64,000 bases of DNA from Bdellovibrionales bacterium RIFOXYC1_FULL_37_79 (lineage in GTDB: Bacteria > Bdellovibrionota > Bacteriovoracia > Bacteriovoracales > Bacteriovoracaceae). Shown one piece after another: positions 3,971 to 43,457 of the stretch. Below the pieces are notes generated by a model. It saw only the letters and a program-made list of their open reading frames with translations. It made no database searches and had not been told where the DNA came from. Both the position numbers and the translations under genes were made by a program. Position 1 is the stretch's first letter; every line of letters starts with the position of its first letter. The stretch spans positions 62,001 through 126,000 of the forward strand of contig MEQB01000042.1 of assembly GCA_001770015.1 (NCBI GenBank), given 5' to 3'.

Positions 3971-5827
3971 CTAGCGCTGAAACTCAATTCCTCCCCAGAT
4001 TATATTTTCTTCGCTATCAAGATTTTTTTCATATACCAGTAGGAAGTGAATGTCCTTCTTAAAAAGTCGCTTACTGGTTTTGACACCGGTACTAATTTTG
4101 GTTGTACTTCCCGGCAAAAAAGTTGGCACATCGCCAGATATTGGCATTTCCCCGCCTACAAAATATTCCCAACCCCCTTTGGCCAGAGTTTCTTTCATTG
4201 CAACCCTGGTTCCCAGTGTGCTTATATAAACAATCATATTGGTGGTTAGGGAGGTTTTAGAGGATAAATCTATCTGTGCCTTCCCTTCAATTTCCGTTTC
4301 ACCTACAAATGTGTCTGGCATAGAGTTGCTTTTTCCGATGTGGTCTCGGGGAAAGGGGAAAATATTTTCTTTGATAGTGACACTGACCTTATCGTCATAC
4401 TCAAAATTTGCACCAAGCGATAGGACTGTGAATGCATCTCCTTCTTTGTCAAAATGATAAGTTTCGCCATTTTTTCTAACCAATTTGCCAGTGCTCAAAA
4501 GAGTGTGGAGTTCGGCGCTGCCAATGGCGTGAATTGAAAAATTTCCTTTCTGATAACTGGGAGATTCGTAGGCGGTTTTTAAGCGAGCATATAAGGTTGA
4601 TTCACTCAAATCGTATTCAATGGATTCGCTTTCGAAGGAATCTTTTAGAAGTGAGAAGGCGAGTCCTGTTTCCAAGCTTAAGTTTCCCCATTTTTTATTT
4701 TTCCACTGGAATGTTGAGTTGGTGGCGATTCCAGATATTTTTTGTCCATGGCCCGTTACTCCGGTGTAAACGGTGCCGATCGTTTGATTTCCAATCCCTA
4801 TTTGAAGTTTACCGAGAGAATATTTATATGGATTAAAAACATATTCTGGTCTTCCGGTTACTTCATGTAGAATTTCTTTTAATTCGCTGGGGATATTGGC
4901 AACTGGTTTACCTGAAGCATCGAATACCCTATAGCCTAAGCCGATATCCGGGAGTGAAGTCTGTTGACGCAAGCTACCTGGTCCATTGCCTTGATCAAAA
5001 GTTACTTCATCATAATTTAATTTAATAATATCTGACTTGTTATTTGGATTCATGGCTATCATAGTGGCATGTCTTCCGTAGGCAGATAAAAAGGTTACTT
5101 CGTACGCTGAAACTCCTAGCTCTTCAAACATATGAGCTTGTGCCCAGGCAATGTCTCGGCAAACCCCACCCGGGGTGCCGGATTTAGTAGCGTAAAGTAG
5201 CTCTTCCACCGTTATAAAATTAGGGTTGGAATCAGCGTCTTCTGCTCTGCTGTAATTATAATTTTGAAGCATTATTCTTCCTATCTTGGACATAAGCTGG
5301 GTATAGTCGTCAAAGCTGAATTTTCCTGATTTGGAAAGATCTTGCAAAACACTTCTCCATGAAGGGGGATTATTGATCATTTGGTTGATAACAATACTTT
5401 CTTGCAGAGATTTTTCAGGGACAGTAACCTGATATTTGCTTTTTATGTATGAATCGAGTGTTGATGTTGCTAGAGAAAGGCTTAACTTTAGAAAAGATAT
5501 TTTAGGATAGTCTTTGGTAAAATTATCAAAAATTTTCCGAGCAGTAATGATGTTTGATGTTCCAATTTTAATTTTTAGTAATTCGTTATCCCAATTATGA
5601 TCAATTTGGGCCTGAGGAATTTGATTATCTCCTTCGTTTGCCACATTCAGTGCAGTGATTCTCTGGTTAAGTTTATCCATTTCGTTTTCAAAATTGGTTA
5701 ATTCTTCAAACATTGATGGTGAATGATAATCTCGATTGTTGGATAATGGGTTGGTGTCTGCAAAACTATAACTACCTAATTGGGCCAAAATAATTACTCC
5801 AGTCAGATTTAATATTTTAGAGAGCAT
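3971..5827 (-). CDS. Exported transglutaminase-like protein with C-terminal beta-barrel-like region
   Basis: The protein has 618 residues. A signal peptide (about 1-23) precedes a helical region, then a transglutaminase-like segment at about 210-280 with a plausible Cys-His-Asp triad: C223 in GGVCRDIAWAQ, H253 in AYGRHATMIAM and D273 in KLNYDEV. Residues 340-618 alternate polar and hydrophobic residues with recurring aromatic turns, as in outer-membrane barrels. The last residues are GGIEFQR rather than the classical terminal aromatic. An AAGGAG site precedes the ATG. Transglutaminase-like folds include proteases and peptidoglycan or protein cross-linking enzymes; which applies here is unknown. 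It is transcribed alone from the 5.8-6.1 kb region. Confidence 0.7.
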   Translation of the reverse strand: MLSKILNLTGVIILAQLGSYSFADTNPLSNNRDYHSPSMFEELTNFENEMDKLNQRITALNVANEGDNQIPQAQIDHNWDNELLKIKIGTSNIITARKIFDNFTKDYPKISFLKLSLSLATSTLDSYIKSKYQVTVPEKSLQESIVINQMINNPPSWRSVLQDLSKSGKFSFDDYTQLMSKIGRIMLQNYNYSRAEDADSNPNFITVEELLYATKSGTPGGVCRDIAWAQAHMFEELGVSAYEVTFLSAYGRHATMIAMNPNNKSDIIKLNYDEVTFDQGNGPGSLRQQTSLPDIGLGYRVFDASGKPVANIPSELKEILHEVTGRPEYVFNPYKYSLGKLQIGIGNQTIGTVYTGVTGHGQKISGIATNSTFQWKNKKWGNLSLETGLAFSLLKDSFESESIEYDLSESTLYARLKTAYESPSYQKGNFSIHAIGSAELHTLLSTGKLVRKNGETYHFDKEGDAFTVLSLGANFEYDDKVSVTIKENIFPFPRDHIGKSNSMPDTFVGETEIEGKAQIDLSSKTSLTTNMIVYISTLGTRVAMKETLAKGGWEYFVGGEMPISGDVPTFLPGSTTKISTGVKTSKRLFKKDIHFLLVYEKNLDSEENIIWGGIEFQR

Positions 5828-6148
5828 AATTATTTTCTCCTTAAAAACCGAGATGGCTGGGTTTTATAACAAAAACTAATAAGACTATTTTTAACACGAT
5901 GCGCAATAAAAAGAAACGGGTTTATCAAAACCGTGTATTTATAATACTGCATCTAAGTTATTGAAATTTTAGGGGTTATGTAAAACACAACTAATTATTC
6001 TAAAATTTTAATGTTTTGTTTAAGTCGAAGAACGGTTTTACTGTTTTTGAACCAAGGTGCTAATTTCACAGTATGTTCTTTTGTTTGACACAATCATTGC
6101 TCCGAAATAGATTTTTCACAATTTAGACAATATAGTCACGGAGAAATC
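5828..6148. other. Intergenic region, divergent promoters
   Basis: This 321-nt gap lies between two divergent genes for exported proteins. It is AT-rich and holds no convincing ORF. On the plus strand it contains a well-spaced sigma-70-type promoter near 6085-6113. On the minus strand the only clear element is the AAGGAG ribosome site of the transglutaminase-like gene close to its right-to-left start. No RNA gene or extended repeat was seen. Confidence 0.6.
6085..6113 (+). promoter_or_regulatory. Sigma-70-like promoter of the 6149 gene
   Basis: A perfect -35 hexamer TTGACA (6085-6090) is followed after exactly 17 nt by TAGATT (6108-6113, 4 of 6 matches to TATAAT). The predicted transcription start would give a roughly 30-nt leader containing GGAG before the ATG at 6149. 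Confidence 0.65.
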
Positions 6149-40736: not shown

Positions 40737-40997
40737 TTATTTCCTGCATTTAATTATATTTGAATTGCATTTTTTACATTCATTTATAGAATGATTTTTC
40801 AAAAAACTATTAAGGTGATTCATTTCATCTTGAGTCATAGTACCCTTTCCTCTACAAAGCGGGCACGTGTGTTTCATGGCCTGTAAAACAGCCTCTCTAA
40901 TGAAGTCTGAACTGTTTGGGAGTGACTTAATATATTTTGCCAGATCGGCGTCGACTTTGAATGTGATGACTTCTTTGGATGTTGATTTTTCTTTCAT
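40737..40997 (-). CDS. Ribbon-helix-helix protein with Cys cluster, probable zinc-responsive regulator of znu
   Basis: The 86-residue protein joins an N-terminal ribbon-helix-helix DNA-binding segment (EVITFKVDADLAKYIKSLP, then NSSDFIREAVLQAM) to a metal-binding tail: H43, CPLC (45-48), H61, H69, CKKC (74-77) and C84. It is the first gene of the znuACB operon, one base from znuA, and a perfect 12-bp inverted repeat overlaps its promoter. The natural reading is an autoregulated repressor that senses zinc, a role usually filled by Zur. Similar RHH/Cys-cluster proteins occur near metal genes in other proteobacteria, but I know of no characterised member. Confidence 0.82.
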   Translation of the reverse strand: MKEKSTSKEVITFKVDADLAKYIKSLPNSSDFIREAVLQAMKHTCPLCRGKGTMTQDEMNHLNSFLKNHSINECKKCNSNIIKCRK

Positions 40998-41922: not shown

Positions 41923-42039
41923 ATTTTGAAGCCTAGAGGTCAATATTTCCCCATGAAGTTGGTAAAATGGTTATTGGCTTTCTTTTTATTTATGATAGAG
42001 GTGATGAGTGTGGATGGTTTGGGCCTGATAAAGCTGTTC
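41923..42039. repeat. Direct repeat copy 1 (rlmH 3'-end remnant, attL/attR-like)
   Basis: This 117-bp segment matches 42933-43049 in direct orientation with 8 differences, all transitions, about 93% identity and no gaps. Positions 41986-42039 on the minus strand read EQLYQAQTIHTHHLYHK then stop, a remnant of the rlmH C terminus carrying R-to-Q and P-to-L changes relative to the intact gene. The other 63 nt match the sequence just downstream of rlmH. Confidence 0.93.
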
Positions 42040-42157
42040 GCCATTTAAAATCTGTTGTTGATTATTTTTGCCATAAATTTTCTCAAATCTGAAAGTTATA
42101 TTTTTCATGGTATTTTACACTTTACGAAATCAGTTAATTGTTGTGTTTTATTTTTTT

Positions 42158-42589
42158 ATGAAAAATGAAAAAAGAATTGCCATTTATGAAGTTCATAAAA
42201 TAAAAGCCATTGAACATTTTTTAATGGCAGAAAAGGCGATAAACCATGAGGTTAATCCTCTTTACGAGCAAATGGTTATGAATTGTCACATGGGAGTTGA
42301 GATGATTATGAAAGCTGCCATTTATAAATTTGGTGGAATCCCGCCAACACATGGTCCCGAAGGCCATAACTTATTGAAAATTGCCAGTACTAAAATTGGC
42401 AAAAGGAAATTATTACTCGATGCAATAAATTCTACTGGATTTATACAGCCTTTGTGGCATAAAATAGTGTCAGCGTGGAATATCAATAAGCGCTACGAAT
42501 TTATGGGGCTTTCACCGCTTGATTATGATGATTTATATGAAGCTTATGAAAGGTTTTACAGATGGATAGTAGCAAAATTTGTAGATTAG
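42158..42589 (+). CDS. HEPN-domain protein of the rlmH cassette
   Basis: The 143-residue protein is helical and fits the HEPN fold: AEKAINHEVNP, CHMGVEMIMKAAIYKFGGIPPTHGPEGHNLLKIAS (about 43-77) and WNINKRYEFMGLSP near 97-110, resembling the conserved THdl and RYP segments of PF05168-type HEPN proteins. These often act in toxin-antitoxin, abortive-infection or nucleotide-linked systems, usually with an MNT nucleotidyltransferase, which is absent here. An ATG at 42107 would add a hydrophobic 17-residue lead; neither start has a clear ribosome site, so the start is uncertain. The last 28 nt overlap the next gene. Confidence 0.7.
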   Translation: MKNEKRIAIYEVHKIKAIEHFLMAEKAINHEVNPLYEQMVMNCHMGVEMIMKAAIYKFGGIPPTHGPEGHNLLKIASTKIGKRKLLLDAINSTGFIQPLWHKIVSAWNINKRYEFMGLSPLDYDDLYEAYERFYRWIVAKFVD

Positions 42590-42885
42590 TTAAAGATCAA
42601 CTTCAATCAATGGAAGTAACGGAAATATTTGCATCGATTGAAGATGAGGATTGTATTCGATTGGAAATTGTATCTAATTATTTTCAAGGAATGCGAATCA
42701 TAAAGCGAATTGAACTTTTATCAAAGTTGCTTCAGAAAATAGCCATGAATGAACTTAAAGATTATCACTTAATCTTTAATCCTTTAACTATCAATGAAAA
42801 ATCTAGTAATGTTGATGAAACTGCAAATCGTCTATCTACAGACGGTAAACAATTAAATGGCATTGCAGCTCAAACCAATTTGTAA
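42562..42885 (+). CDS. Small BolA/IbaG-like protein paired with the HEPN protein
   Basis: The 107-residue protein resembles BolA/IbaG: an N-terminal helix (KICRLVKDQLQS), a strand, then IRLEIVSNYFQGMRIIKRIELLSKLL, which parallels the F-x-G-x5-R/K helix-turn-helix-like region of the family, and a following strand (YHLIFNPLTINEK). The final ~28 residues are an extra polar tail. The usual BolA Cys/His iron ligands are not obvious. AAAGG lies 8 nt before the ATG. It overlaps the HEPN gene by 28 nt, which strongly suggests a functional pair. The BolA assignment is by eye and moderate. Confidence 0.62.
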   Translation: MDSSKICRLVKDQLQSMEVTEIFASIEDEDCIRLEIVSNYFQGMRIIKRIELLSKLLQKIAMNELKDYHLIFNPLTINEKSSNVDETANRLSTDGKQLNGIAAQTNL

Positions 42886-42932
42886 ATATTGCTATCAGAT
42901 GGTTGAAGAACATCTATTCGGGAGTGATAAGA

Positions 42933-43049
42933 ATTTTGAGGCCTAGAGGTCAATATTTCCCCACGAAGTTGGTAAAATGGTTATTGGTTTTCTTCTTATT
43001 TGTGATAGGGGTGATGAGTGTGGATGGTTTGGGCCCGATAAAGCTGCTC
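42933..43049. repeat. Direct repeat copy 2 (intact rlmH 3' end)
   Basis: Partner of the 41923-42039 repeat. Positions 42996-43049 encode the last 17 residues and stop codon of the functional rlmH (EQLYRAQTIHTHHPYHK); 42933-42995 is the downstream flank. Coding constraint keeps this copy intact, whereas copy 1 has drifted. Confidence 0.93.
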
Positions 43050-43456
43050 TATAAGAATAATTCGGGCCATTTTGTGGGGGAAAGTGAGCAGGGAAAGGGA
43101 TATTTTTTCGTTGGCACGAGATAAAAGTTCCTCTCCAAATCCACTTGATCCTCCAACGATCAAATAAAGAGAACCAGAAGTTTTTTCAAGATGATTATAA
43201 AGCCATTTTGAAAAGGAAACGCTGTCCATTTGTTTTCCTGTTTCGGTCAGTAGGATCATCATACTTTTTGAATTTTGATTTAATTGATCAATTTTTTTTA
43301 AAACCAGACTGGCTTCAATGGAGACATCTTCTTTTTGTGATTTAATTTCATGAATATTTAATTTAAAAGTTTTAATTTGTTTTAAATAATGCTCTTCGAG
43401 TGCCAGCAAGTTTTGATCTTTTAATTGTCCAACCACGATAAGATTTAATTCTTTCA

Positions 43457-43457
<1 letters not shown>
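42996..43457 (-). CDS. rlmH: 23S rRNA (pseudouridine1915-N3)-methyltransferase RlmH
   Basis: The 153-residue SPOUT methyltransferase has the RlmH signatures: LIVVGQLKD at the N terminus, LTETGKQMDSVSFSKWL, LIVGGSSGFGEEL (SAM-binding knot) and the C-terminal ARIILIEQLYRAQTIHTHHPYHK. It methylates pseudouridine 1915 of 23S rRNA in assembled ribosomes. It overlaps the rsfS stop by one base. Its last 54 nt are duplicated 1 kb away as part of the candidate attachment repeat, while the gene itself remains complete. Confidence 0.96.

Follow-up and report, generated by a model that had tools for sequence, protein, structure and literature searches.

A HEPN-domain gene overlapping a BolA-like gene recurs as mobile cargo in Bdellovibrionota and may form a toxin-antitoxin-like module

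What does a HEPN-domain protein do with a small BolA-like protein as its partner? The question is raised by two overlapping genes in the window, the whole stretch of 64,000 nucleotides from Bdellovibrionales bacterium RIFOXYC1_FULL_37_79 that was analysed here. HEPN proteins form a family rich in toxins, and in HEPN-MNT pairs, where MNT is a nucleotidyltransferase antitoxin, the HEPN protein is neutralised through nucleotidylation (PMC7641770, PMC11586414). An earlier note on this DNA had remarked that no MNT is present, and indeed none adjoins the pair in the window; it had read the two genes as a new toxin-antitoxin or defence pair in which the BolA-like protein is the antidote or the regulator. 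Both open reading frames, and the 28-nt overlap that the note had described, were found as follows.

42158..42589, plus strand: HEPN-domain protein (PF05168), 143 aa, the proposed effector or toxin
42562..42885, plus strand: BolA-like protein, 107 aa, the proposed neutraliser or regulator
42562..42589, plus strand: overlap of the HEPN and BolA-like genes, 28 nt

An in-frame ATG at 42107 is an alternative start of the HEPN gene and would give a protein of 160 aa. The start codon of the BolA-like gene is contained in the Trp-Ile codons (ATGGAT) of the HEPN gene.

Profile searches of the bacterial family and of 369 genomes of the phylum revealed 15 loci with the HEPN and BolA-like pair, spread over 13 genomes of four families of the phylum: G000 (the window), G062, G071 (two loci), G114, G059, G082, G073, G136 (two loci), G266, G184, G171, G208 and G333. 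Conserved adjacency, which the earlier note had proposed as a check, is therefore kept elsewhere. The count of 15 includes one G071 copy that is cut by a contig end, the two G136 copies (one without the N-terminal part of the HEPN protein and one degraded in both genes), and the G208 and G333 copies, both without the HEPN N-terminal part. Twelve of the 15 loci have an overlap of 28 nt; it measures 31 nt at G136, 25 nt at G171 and 22 nt at G208. Because the same pair occurs with a near-fixed overlap at 14 loci other than the window, it is not a product of chance, and the description of the two genes as a module holds. All HEPN-profile matches with an E value below 1e-9 are accompanied by a BolA-like gene, and all BolA-like matches with an E value below 1e-20 lie behind a HEPN gene or its remnant. 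No close relatives were found among plasmids, phages and viral contigs.

Outside the family, identity to the window proteins is about 25 % for the HEPN protein and 16-24 % for the BolA-like protein. Comparison of the window with G062 gave pN/pS values of 0.22/0.57 for the HEPN gene and 0.40/0.72 for the BolA-like gene, and the closer HEPN pair G059/G082 gave 0.09/0.64; these substitution counts indicate that both genes are under purifying selection. At three loci the BolA-like gene is intact and the HEPN gene has lost its N-terminal part, whereas the converse, an intact HEPN gene with a broken BolA-like gene, was found at none of the 15 loci. This one-sided loss is compatible with a toxin-antitoxin pair but is weak evidence, since a 5' truncation of the operon would give the same pattern. 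The distances of the HEPN and BolA-like proteins are correlated (Spearman 0.77; 12 of 5000 permutations as high), and because such a correlation is expected of linked genes we do not take it as evidence of contact.

The first protein is predicted to be a HEPN protein, an assignment that rests on sequence profiles. The window protein matched PF05168, the family suggested by the earlier note, with 24.9-25.4 bits against a gathering cut-off of 22, and all seven HEPN proteins of the module's family that were scanned matched it (best E 5.8e-11). Sequence searches of solved structures with the HEPN protein gave nothing meaningful, and none of the PADLOC models matches it. The structural model, built from a two-sequence alignment, has a pLDDT of 57; its matches include the HEPN structures 2hsb (Z 7.3, rmsd 2.6 over 80), 1ufb, 4nqf and 3o10, with Z values below what helical bundles need.

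Conserved residues of the window HEPN protein are H44, E48, K52, H70, W107, R112-Y113 and W136. Among these, H44, E48, R112-Y113 and H70 are invariant in the family and are the candidates for a catalytic contribution; H70 is part of an H-N/D-L motif that the MNT-partnered HEPN proteins also have. At the conserved R112 site the RX4-6H motif is absent in all 10 HEPN proteins examined, and it is also absent in the MNT-partnered PF05168 HEPN proteins examined. A canonical HEPN RNase is therefore not to be assumed. HEPN domains that lack RX4-6H can be non-catalytic, and in several cases in PF05168 an Asp stands in place of the motif His, and another conserved His could contribute (PMC3710099). In one HEPN protein the active site lies at Q44/E47 and not in RX4HXY (PMC11586414), which by analogy makes the invariant H44-x3-E48 a candidate site of interest.

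The small protein is predicted to have a BolA fold, and this assignment is supported by profile comparison as well as by a confident model. The window protein itself matched PF01722 with 19.2 bits (E 0.0015), under the gathering cut-off of 25.7; a PF01722 match was obtained with six of nine homologues when E values up to 1 were listed, and the best E was 6.5e-7. The profile of the BolA-like family matched BolA structures with an E of 1.9e-6, and hhalign of this family with the canonical BolAs of the same bacterial family gave 96.7 % (E 4.3e-10). The AlphaFold model exceeds a pLDDT of 90 across most of residues 1-80 and has the topology helix-strand-strand-helix-helix-strand-helix, with a BolA fold at residues 1-82 and a low-confidence C-terminal tail at residues 84-107. 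Its match to 3tr3 has a Z of 10.6 (rmsd 2.0 over 77 residues), and BolA proteins occupy the first eleven places by Z (VIA-align) and the first sixteen by Foldseek. Fold prediction, which the earlier note had suggested for both proteins, thus bore out the BolA-like label of the second protein and gave a weak model of the first. The reading in that note was to be given up if the small protein lacked a BolA-type fold and never accompanied the HEPN gene elsewhere; we found both the fold and the co-occurrence.

We then considered whether the small protein is a BolA in function. The His of the IHA motif near the C-terminus is a cluster ligand of canonical BolAs. Most of the canonical BolAs found in these genomes have this His and a monothiol glutaredoxin gene alongside, which adjoins the canonical BolAs of G007, G110, G008 and G002, for example; the module's BolA-like gene is adjoined by the HEPN gene instead. 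Among 14 members of the BolA-like family there is no conserved His, neither that of IHA nor that of RH/QH being retained. Given the lack of a conserved His and the HEPN gene as neighbour, an iron-sulphur function of the module's BolA-like protein appears unlikely. The protein resembles BolA/IbaG in fold and profile and keeps F-x-G and the Arg of the central motif, whereas it differs in the two missing His motifs, in an added C-terminal tail and in the missing glutaredoxin neighbour. We do not file it as a functional BolA, because the His motif and the glutaredoxin neighbour are absent and the score for PF01722 is under the cut-off. No canonical BolA above threshold was found in the window's genome.

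The same evidence bears on a different reading, in which a true BolA and a non-toxic HEPN subunit that binds RNA or a substrate form a housekeeping-type RNA/iron-sulphur regulator. The BolA fold is clear, and the HEPN protein has no RX4-6H, as is the case in HEPN domains that can be non-catalytic (PMC3710099). However, the BolA-like family conserves no His at all, those of IHA and RH/QH included, the glutaredoxin gene adjoins the canonical BolAs of the same bacterial family and not the module's gene, and the distribution of the pair is patchy and mobile, so that we regard a housekeeping role as unlikely.

The C-terminal tails of the BolA-like proteins (42811-42882 in the window) are low-confidence and end in small residues (AAQTNL, AASSHY, AAKEI etc.), and these endings might be degradation tags. 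Orphan BolA-like relatives, with neither HEPN nor glutaredoxin neighbours, occur in G343 (L130) and G353 (L131); it is possible that they represent the source family of the module's BolA-like protein.

The pair is mobile, and in the Bacteriovoracaceae it is usually ICE/IME-like cargo just 3' of an integrase. A gene for a tyrosine integrase lies immediately 5' of the pair in G114, G059, G082, G073 and G071, with a PF00589 match in all but G071, where the integrase frame is broken; the spacing in the order integrase-HEPN-BolA is about 50-90 nt in G059, G082, G073 and G114. In G062 the order is integrase, two small genes and then HEPN-BolA. An integrase is found beside the pair at six Bacteriovoracaceae loci, and none beside the window copy. 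On the same side as the pair, G114 carries TrbI, TraG-like, coupling-protein-like and SSB genes, which mark an integrative conjugative element. A 14-bp repeat considered for the attachment sites of this element is not evidence, since a match of equal length was found in 23 of 200 random windows, and there are no tRNA genes near the element. The two small genes of G062 (L015:5058-5600 and 5597-5887), which lie between the integrase and HEPN genes, have no Pfam match.

Integrases of the same family occur elsewhere in the window's genome. Among the genes that follow them on the 3' side are AbiEi, with two unassigned genes in between, and AbiEi/AbiEii, and another such integrase has ORF6N with a DUF6036 nucleotidyltransferase directly 3'; the slot thus holds toxin-antitoxin cargo. 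AbiE (type IV) is thus like the pair in occupying the slot 3' of same-family integrases, but the AbiE proteins are unrelated to the HEPN and BolA-like proteins. Around the copies that have no integrase beside them lie genes for Fic, a PIN protein, a Zeta-like kinase and an addiction antidote, as well as a HEPN-MNT pair, and AbiEi/AbiEii adjoins the degraded copy of G136. As far as genomic company is concerned, the toxin-antitoxin reading of the earlier note agrees with these toxin-antitoxin-like neighbours in other genomes. The loci L094 (C6:1-12000), L095 and L097 of the window's genome hold varied AbiE-type/nucleotidyltransferase pairs 3' of integrases, and some of the slot genes belong to unassigned families, for example L094:1265-2254 and 515-1261.

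The position directly 3' of the integrase in G059, G082, G073 and G114 would also suit a pair that serves the mobile element itself, for example by regulating the integrase or excision. We consider this quite improbable, because copies with open frames lie away from an integrase in the window, G266, G184 and G171, the window copy retains the family-invariant residues, and AbiE-type genes are found in the same slot behind related integrases of the window's genome.

The window copy lies in an insertion at the 3' end of rlmH, which is composed as follows.

41923..42039, no strand: left copy of the 117-nt direct repeat, which contains the rlmH 3' end in truncated form
42040..42932, no strand: unique part of the insertion, with the pair as its sole content
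42933..43049, no strand: right 117-nt direct repeat
42996..43049: 3' end of the intact rlmH within the right repeat (last 18 codons of rlmH)
42996..43457, minus strand: rlmH, which encodes a SPOUT methyltransferase and carries the insertion at its 3' end

The insertion is about 1,010 bp (about 1.0 kb) long. The repeat-flanked cassette that the earlier note had seen corresponds to the two 117-nt copies, which are 93 % identical, bracket the pair and are the only ones in the window's genome. In G001, which is of the same genus, an ankyrin-type lipoprotein gene directly adjoins rlmH, and one repeat copy without an insert represents the empty site. Between the two repeat copies there are 8 differences, 4 of the 117 sites being derived on each side when G001 is taken as the outgroup, and comparison of each copy with G001 shows 24 differences in 117 sites. 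These counts indicate that the duplication postdates the split from G001, yet is not recent. SCC-type cassettes are inserted at the 3' end of rlmH/orfX with direct repeats, and the window insertion is like them in its site and its repeats, whereas it differs in host, in the 1-kb size of the insert and in the lack of a ccr recombinase inside. It has no internal recombinase of another kind either, and the same-family integrases lie elsewhere in the genome.

The window copy could be a neutral relic of a lost element, functionless now, which would fit the lack of an adjoining integrase and the outcome of a promoter and terminator scan near the pair, in which neither kind of site exceeded chance. 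Both frames are nonetheless open and the invariant residues are kept, although 4 of the 117 positions have changed in each repeat, and pN/pS against G062 is low, so that a relic is very improbable.

The weaker HEPN-profile matches are other HEPN proteins. In five of those examined (G309, G208 contig 48, G176, G075 and G029) the HEPN gene precedes an MNT gene; the MNT proteins are 98-106 aa long, the genes overlap by 25-28 nt, and the second start codon lies mostly in the same Trp-codon context. In others the order is reversed, and a published survey of HEPN-MNT pairs likewise has the antitoxin gene usually in first place (PMC3710099). Comparison of the profiles of the HEPN-first, MNT-partnered HEPN proteins and the BolA-partnered ones gave 97.2 % (E 3.9e-11). 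With the same order and overlap and homologous HEPN proteins, the BolA-like gene takes the place of the MNT gene. The nucleotidyltransferase motif GSX10DXD is absent in all 14 BolA-like partners, which excludes AMPylation by them.

The likeness to HEPN-MNT (HepT-MntA, type VII) thus consists of a homologous PF05168 HEPN protein, the gene order and the 25-28 nt overlap of the local pairs, the compact overlapping genes (HEPN of about 130-145 aa and partner of 106 aa) and the proximity of other toxin-antitoxin genes; the differences are a BolA-fold partner without GS-DXD and a HEPN protein without RX4HXY. Because the partner motif was looked for and is absent, we classify the pair as a variant of HEPN two-gene modules and do not file it as HEPN-MNT. 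The dyad of HEPN and a ParA/Soj-like ATPase, a proposed toxin-antitoxin pair, is a described precedent for an unrelated protein in the MNT-equivalent position, although the HEPN family there is MAE_18760 and the partner is an ATPase (PMC3710099). That the BolA-like protein is an MNT whose active site was lost by descent, the pair being a decayed HEPN-MNT module, is hardly credible. Such an origin would suit the shared overlap and order, the similar size (about 106 aa), a brief resemblance at I-x-L-x-I-V-S-x-x-F and an hhalign P of 0.0028 over 35 columns. However, the hhalign value is 10.8 % with MNT versus 96.7 % with canonical BolA, and the predicted topology and best structure matches are those of BolA.

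We infer an effector role for the HEPN protein and a neutraliser role for the BolA-like protein. On balance, we lean towards a HEPN protein that stops growth or infection and is held in check by binding of the BolA-like protein, the output of the two being coupled via the overlap. The pair would then be a mobile toxin-antitoxin-like module, for maintenance or abortive defence, with the PF05168-type HEPN protein as the effector. The BolA-fold protein would be translated in step with it through the fixed overlap and would bind the HEPN protein or otherwise restrain the effector. Since this partner is without nucleotidyltransferase residues, control would be by binding, either to the HEPN protein or through a nucleic-acid ligand of the KH-like BolA fold, and not by AMPylation. 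In this view, the window copy is an insertion at the end of rlmH that has flanking repeats but no integrase.

Several findings run counter to this proposal. The antitoxin gene usually comes first in toxin-antitoxin pairs, and a HEPN gene in first position is unusual for a toxin, but the local PF05168 HEPN-MNT pairs that the module resembles most are HEPN-first as well. RNase activity is uncertain given the lack of RX4-6H in every member, there is no PADLOC match, and the HEPN model is weak (pLDDT 57). The earlier view of a new toxin-antitoxin or defence pair with a BolA-like antidote or regulator is partly supported; the MNT-equivalent position of the BolA-like gene and the cargo slot behind integrases go beyond that note. 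We put forward more tentatively, and at somewhat less than an even chance, that a BolA-fold antitoxin of a HEPN toxin replaces the nucleotidyltransferase antitoxin in an operon whose overlap is fixed, which would be an undescribed type of toxin-antitoxin or abortive-defence system. To our knowledge, there is no earlier BolA-fold antitoxin and no earlier PF05168 HEPN pair controlled without nucleotidylation, and among the papers searched for BolA and HEPN together none describes a HEPN-BolA pair. If the proposal is true, a HEPN effector can be controlled other than by an enzyme partner, and a fold whose known functions concern iron-sulphur and transcription has a role in toxin control. The same junction with two different partners, BolA-like and MNT, offers a ready comparison, and the pair shows what integrative elements carry as cargo in a predator-rich bacterial group.

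Elsewhere in the window, a gene at 40737-40997 on the minus strand encodes a small protein that combines a weak match to ribbon-helix-helix proteins with a zinc-ribbon-like CXXC...CXXC part. It lies just upstream of a znuA-type zinc-uptake operon and is conserved in G001, and its product is possibly a metal-responsive regulator.
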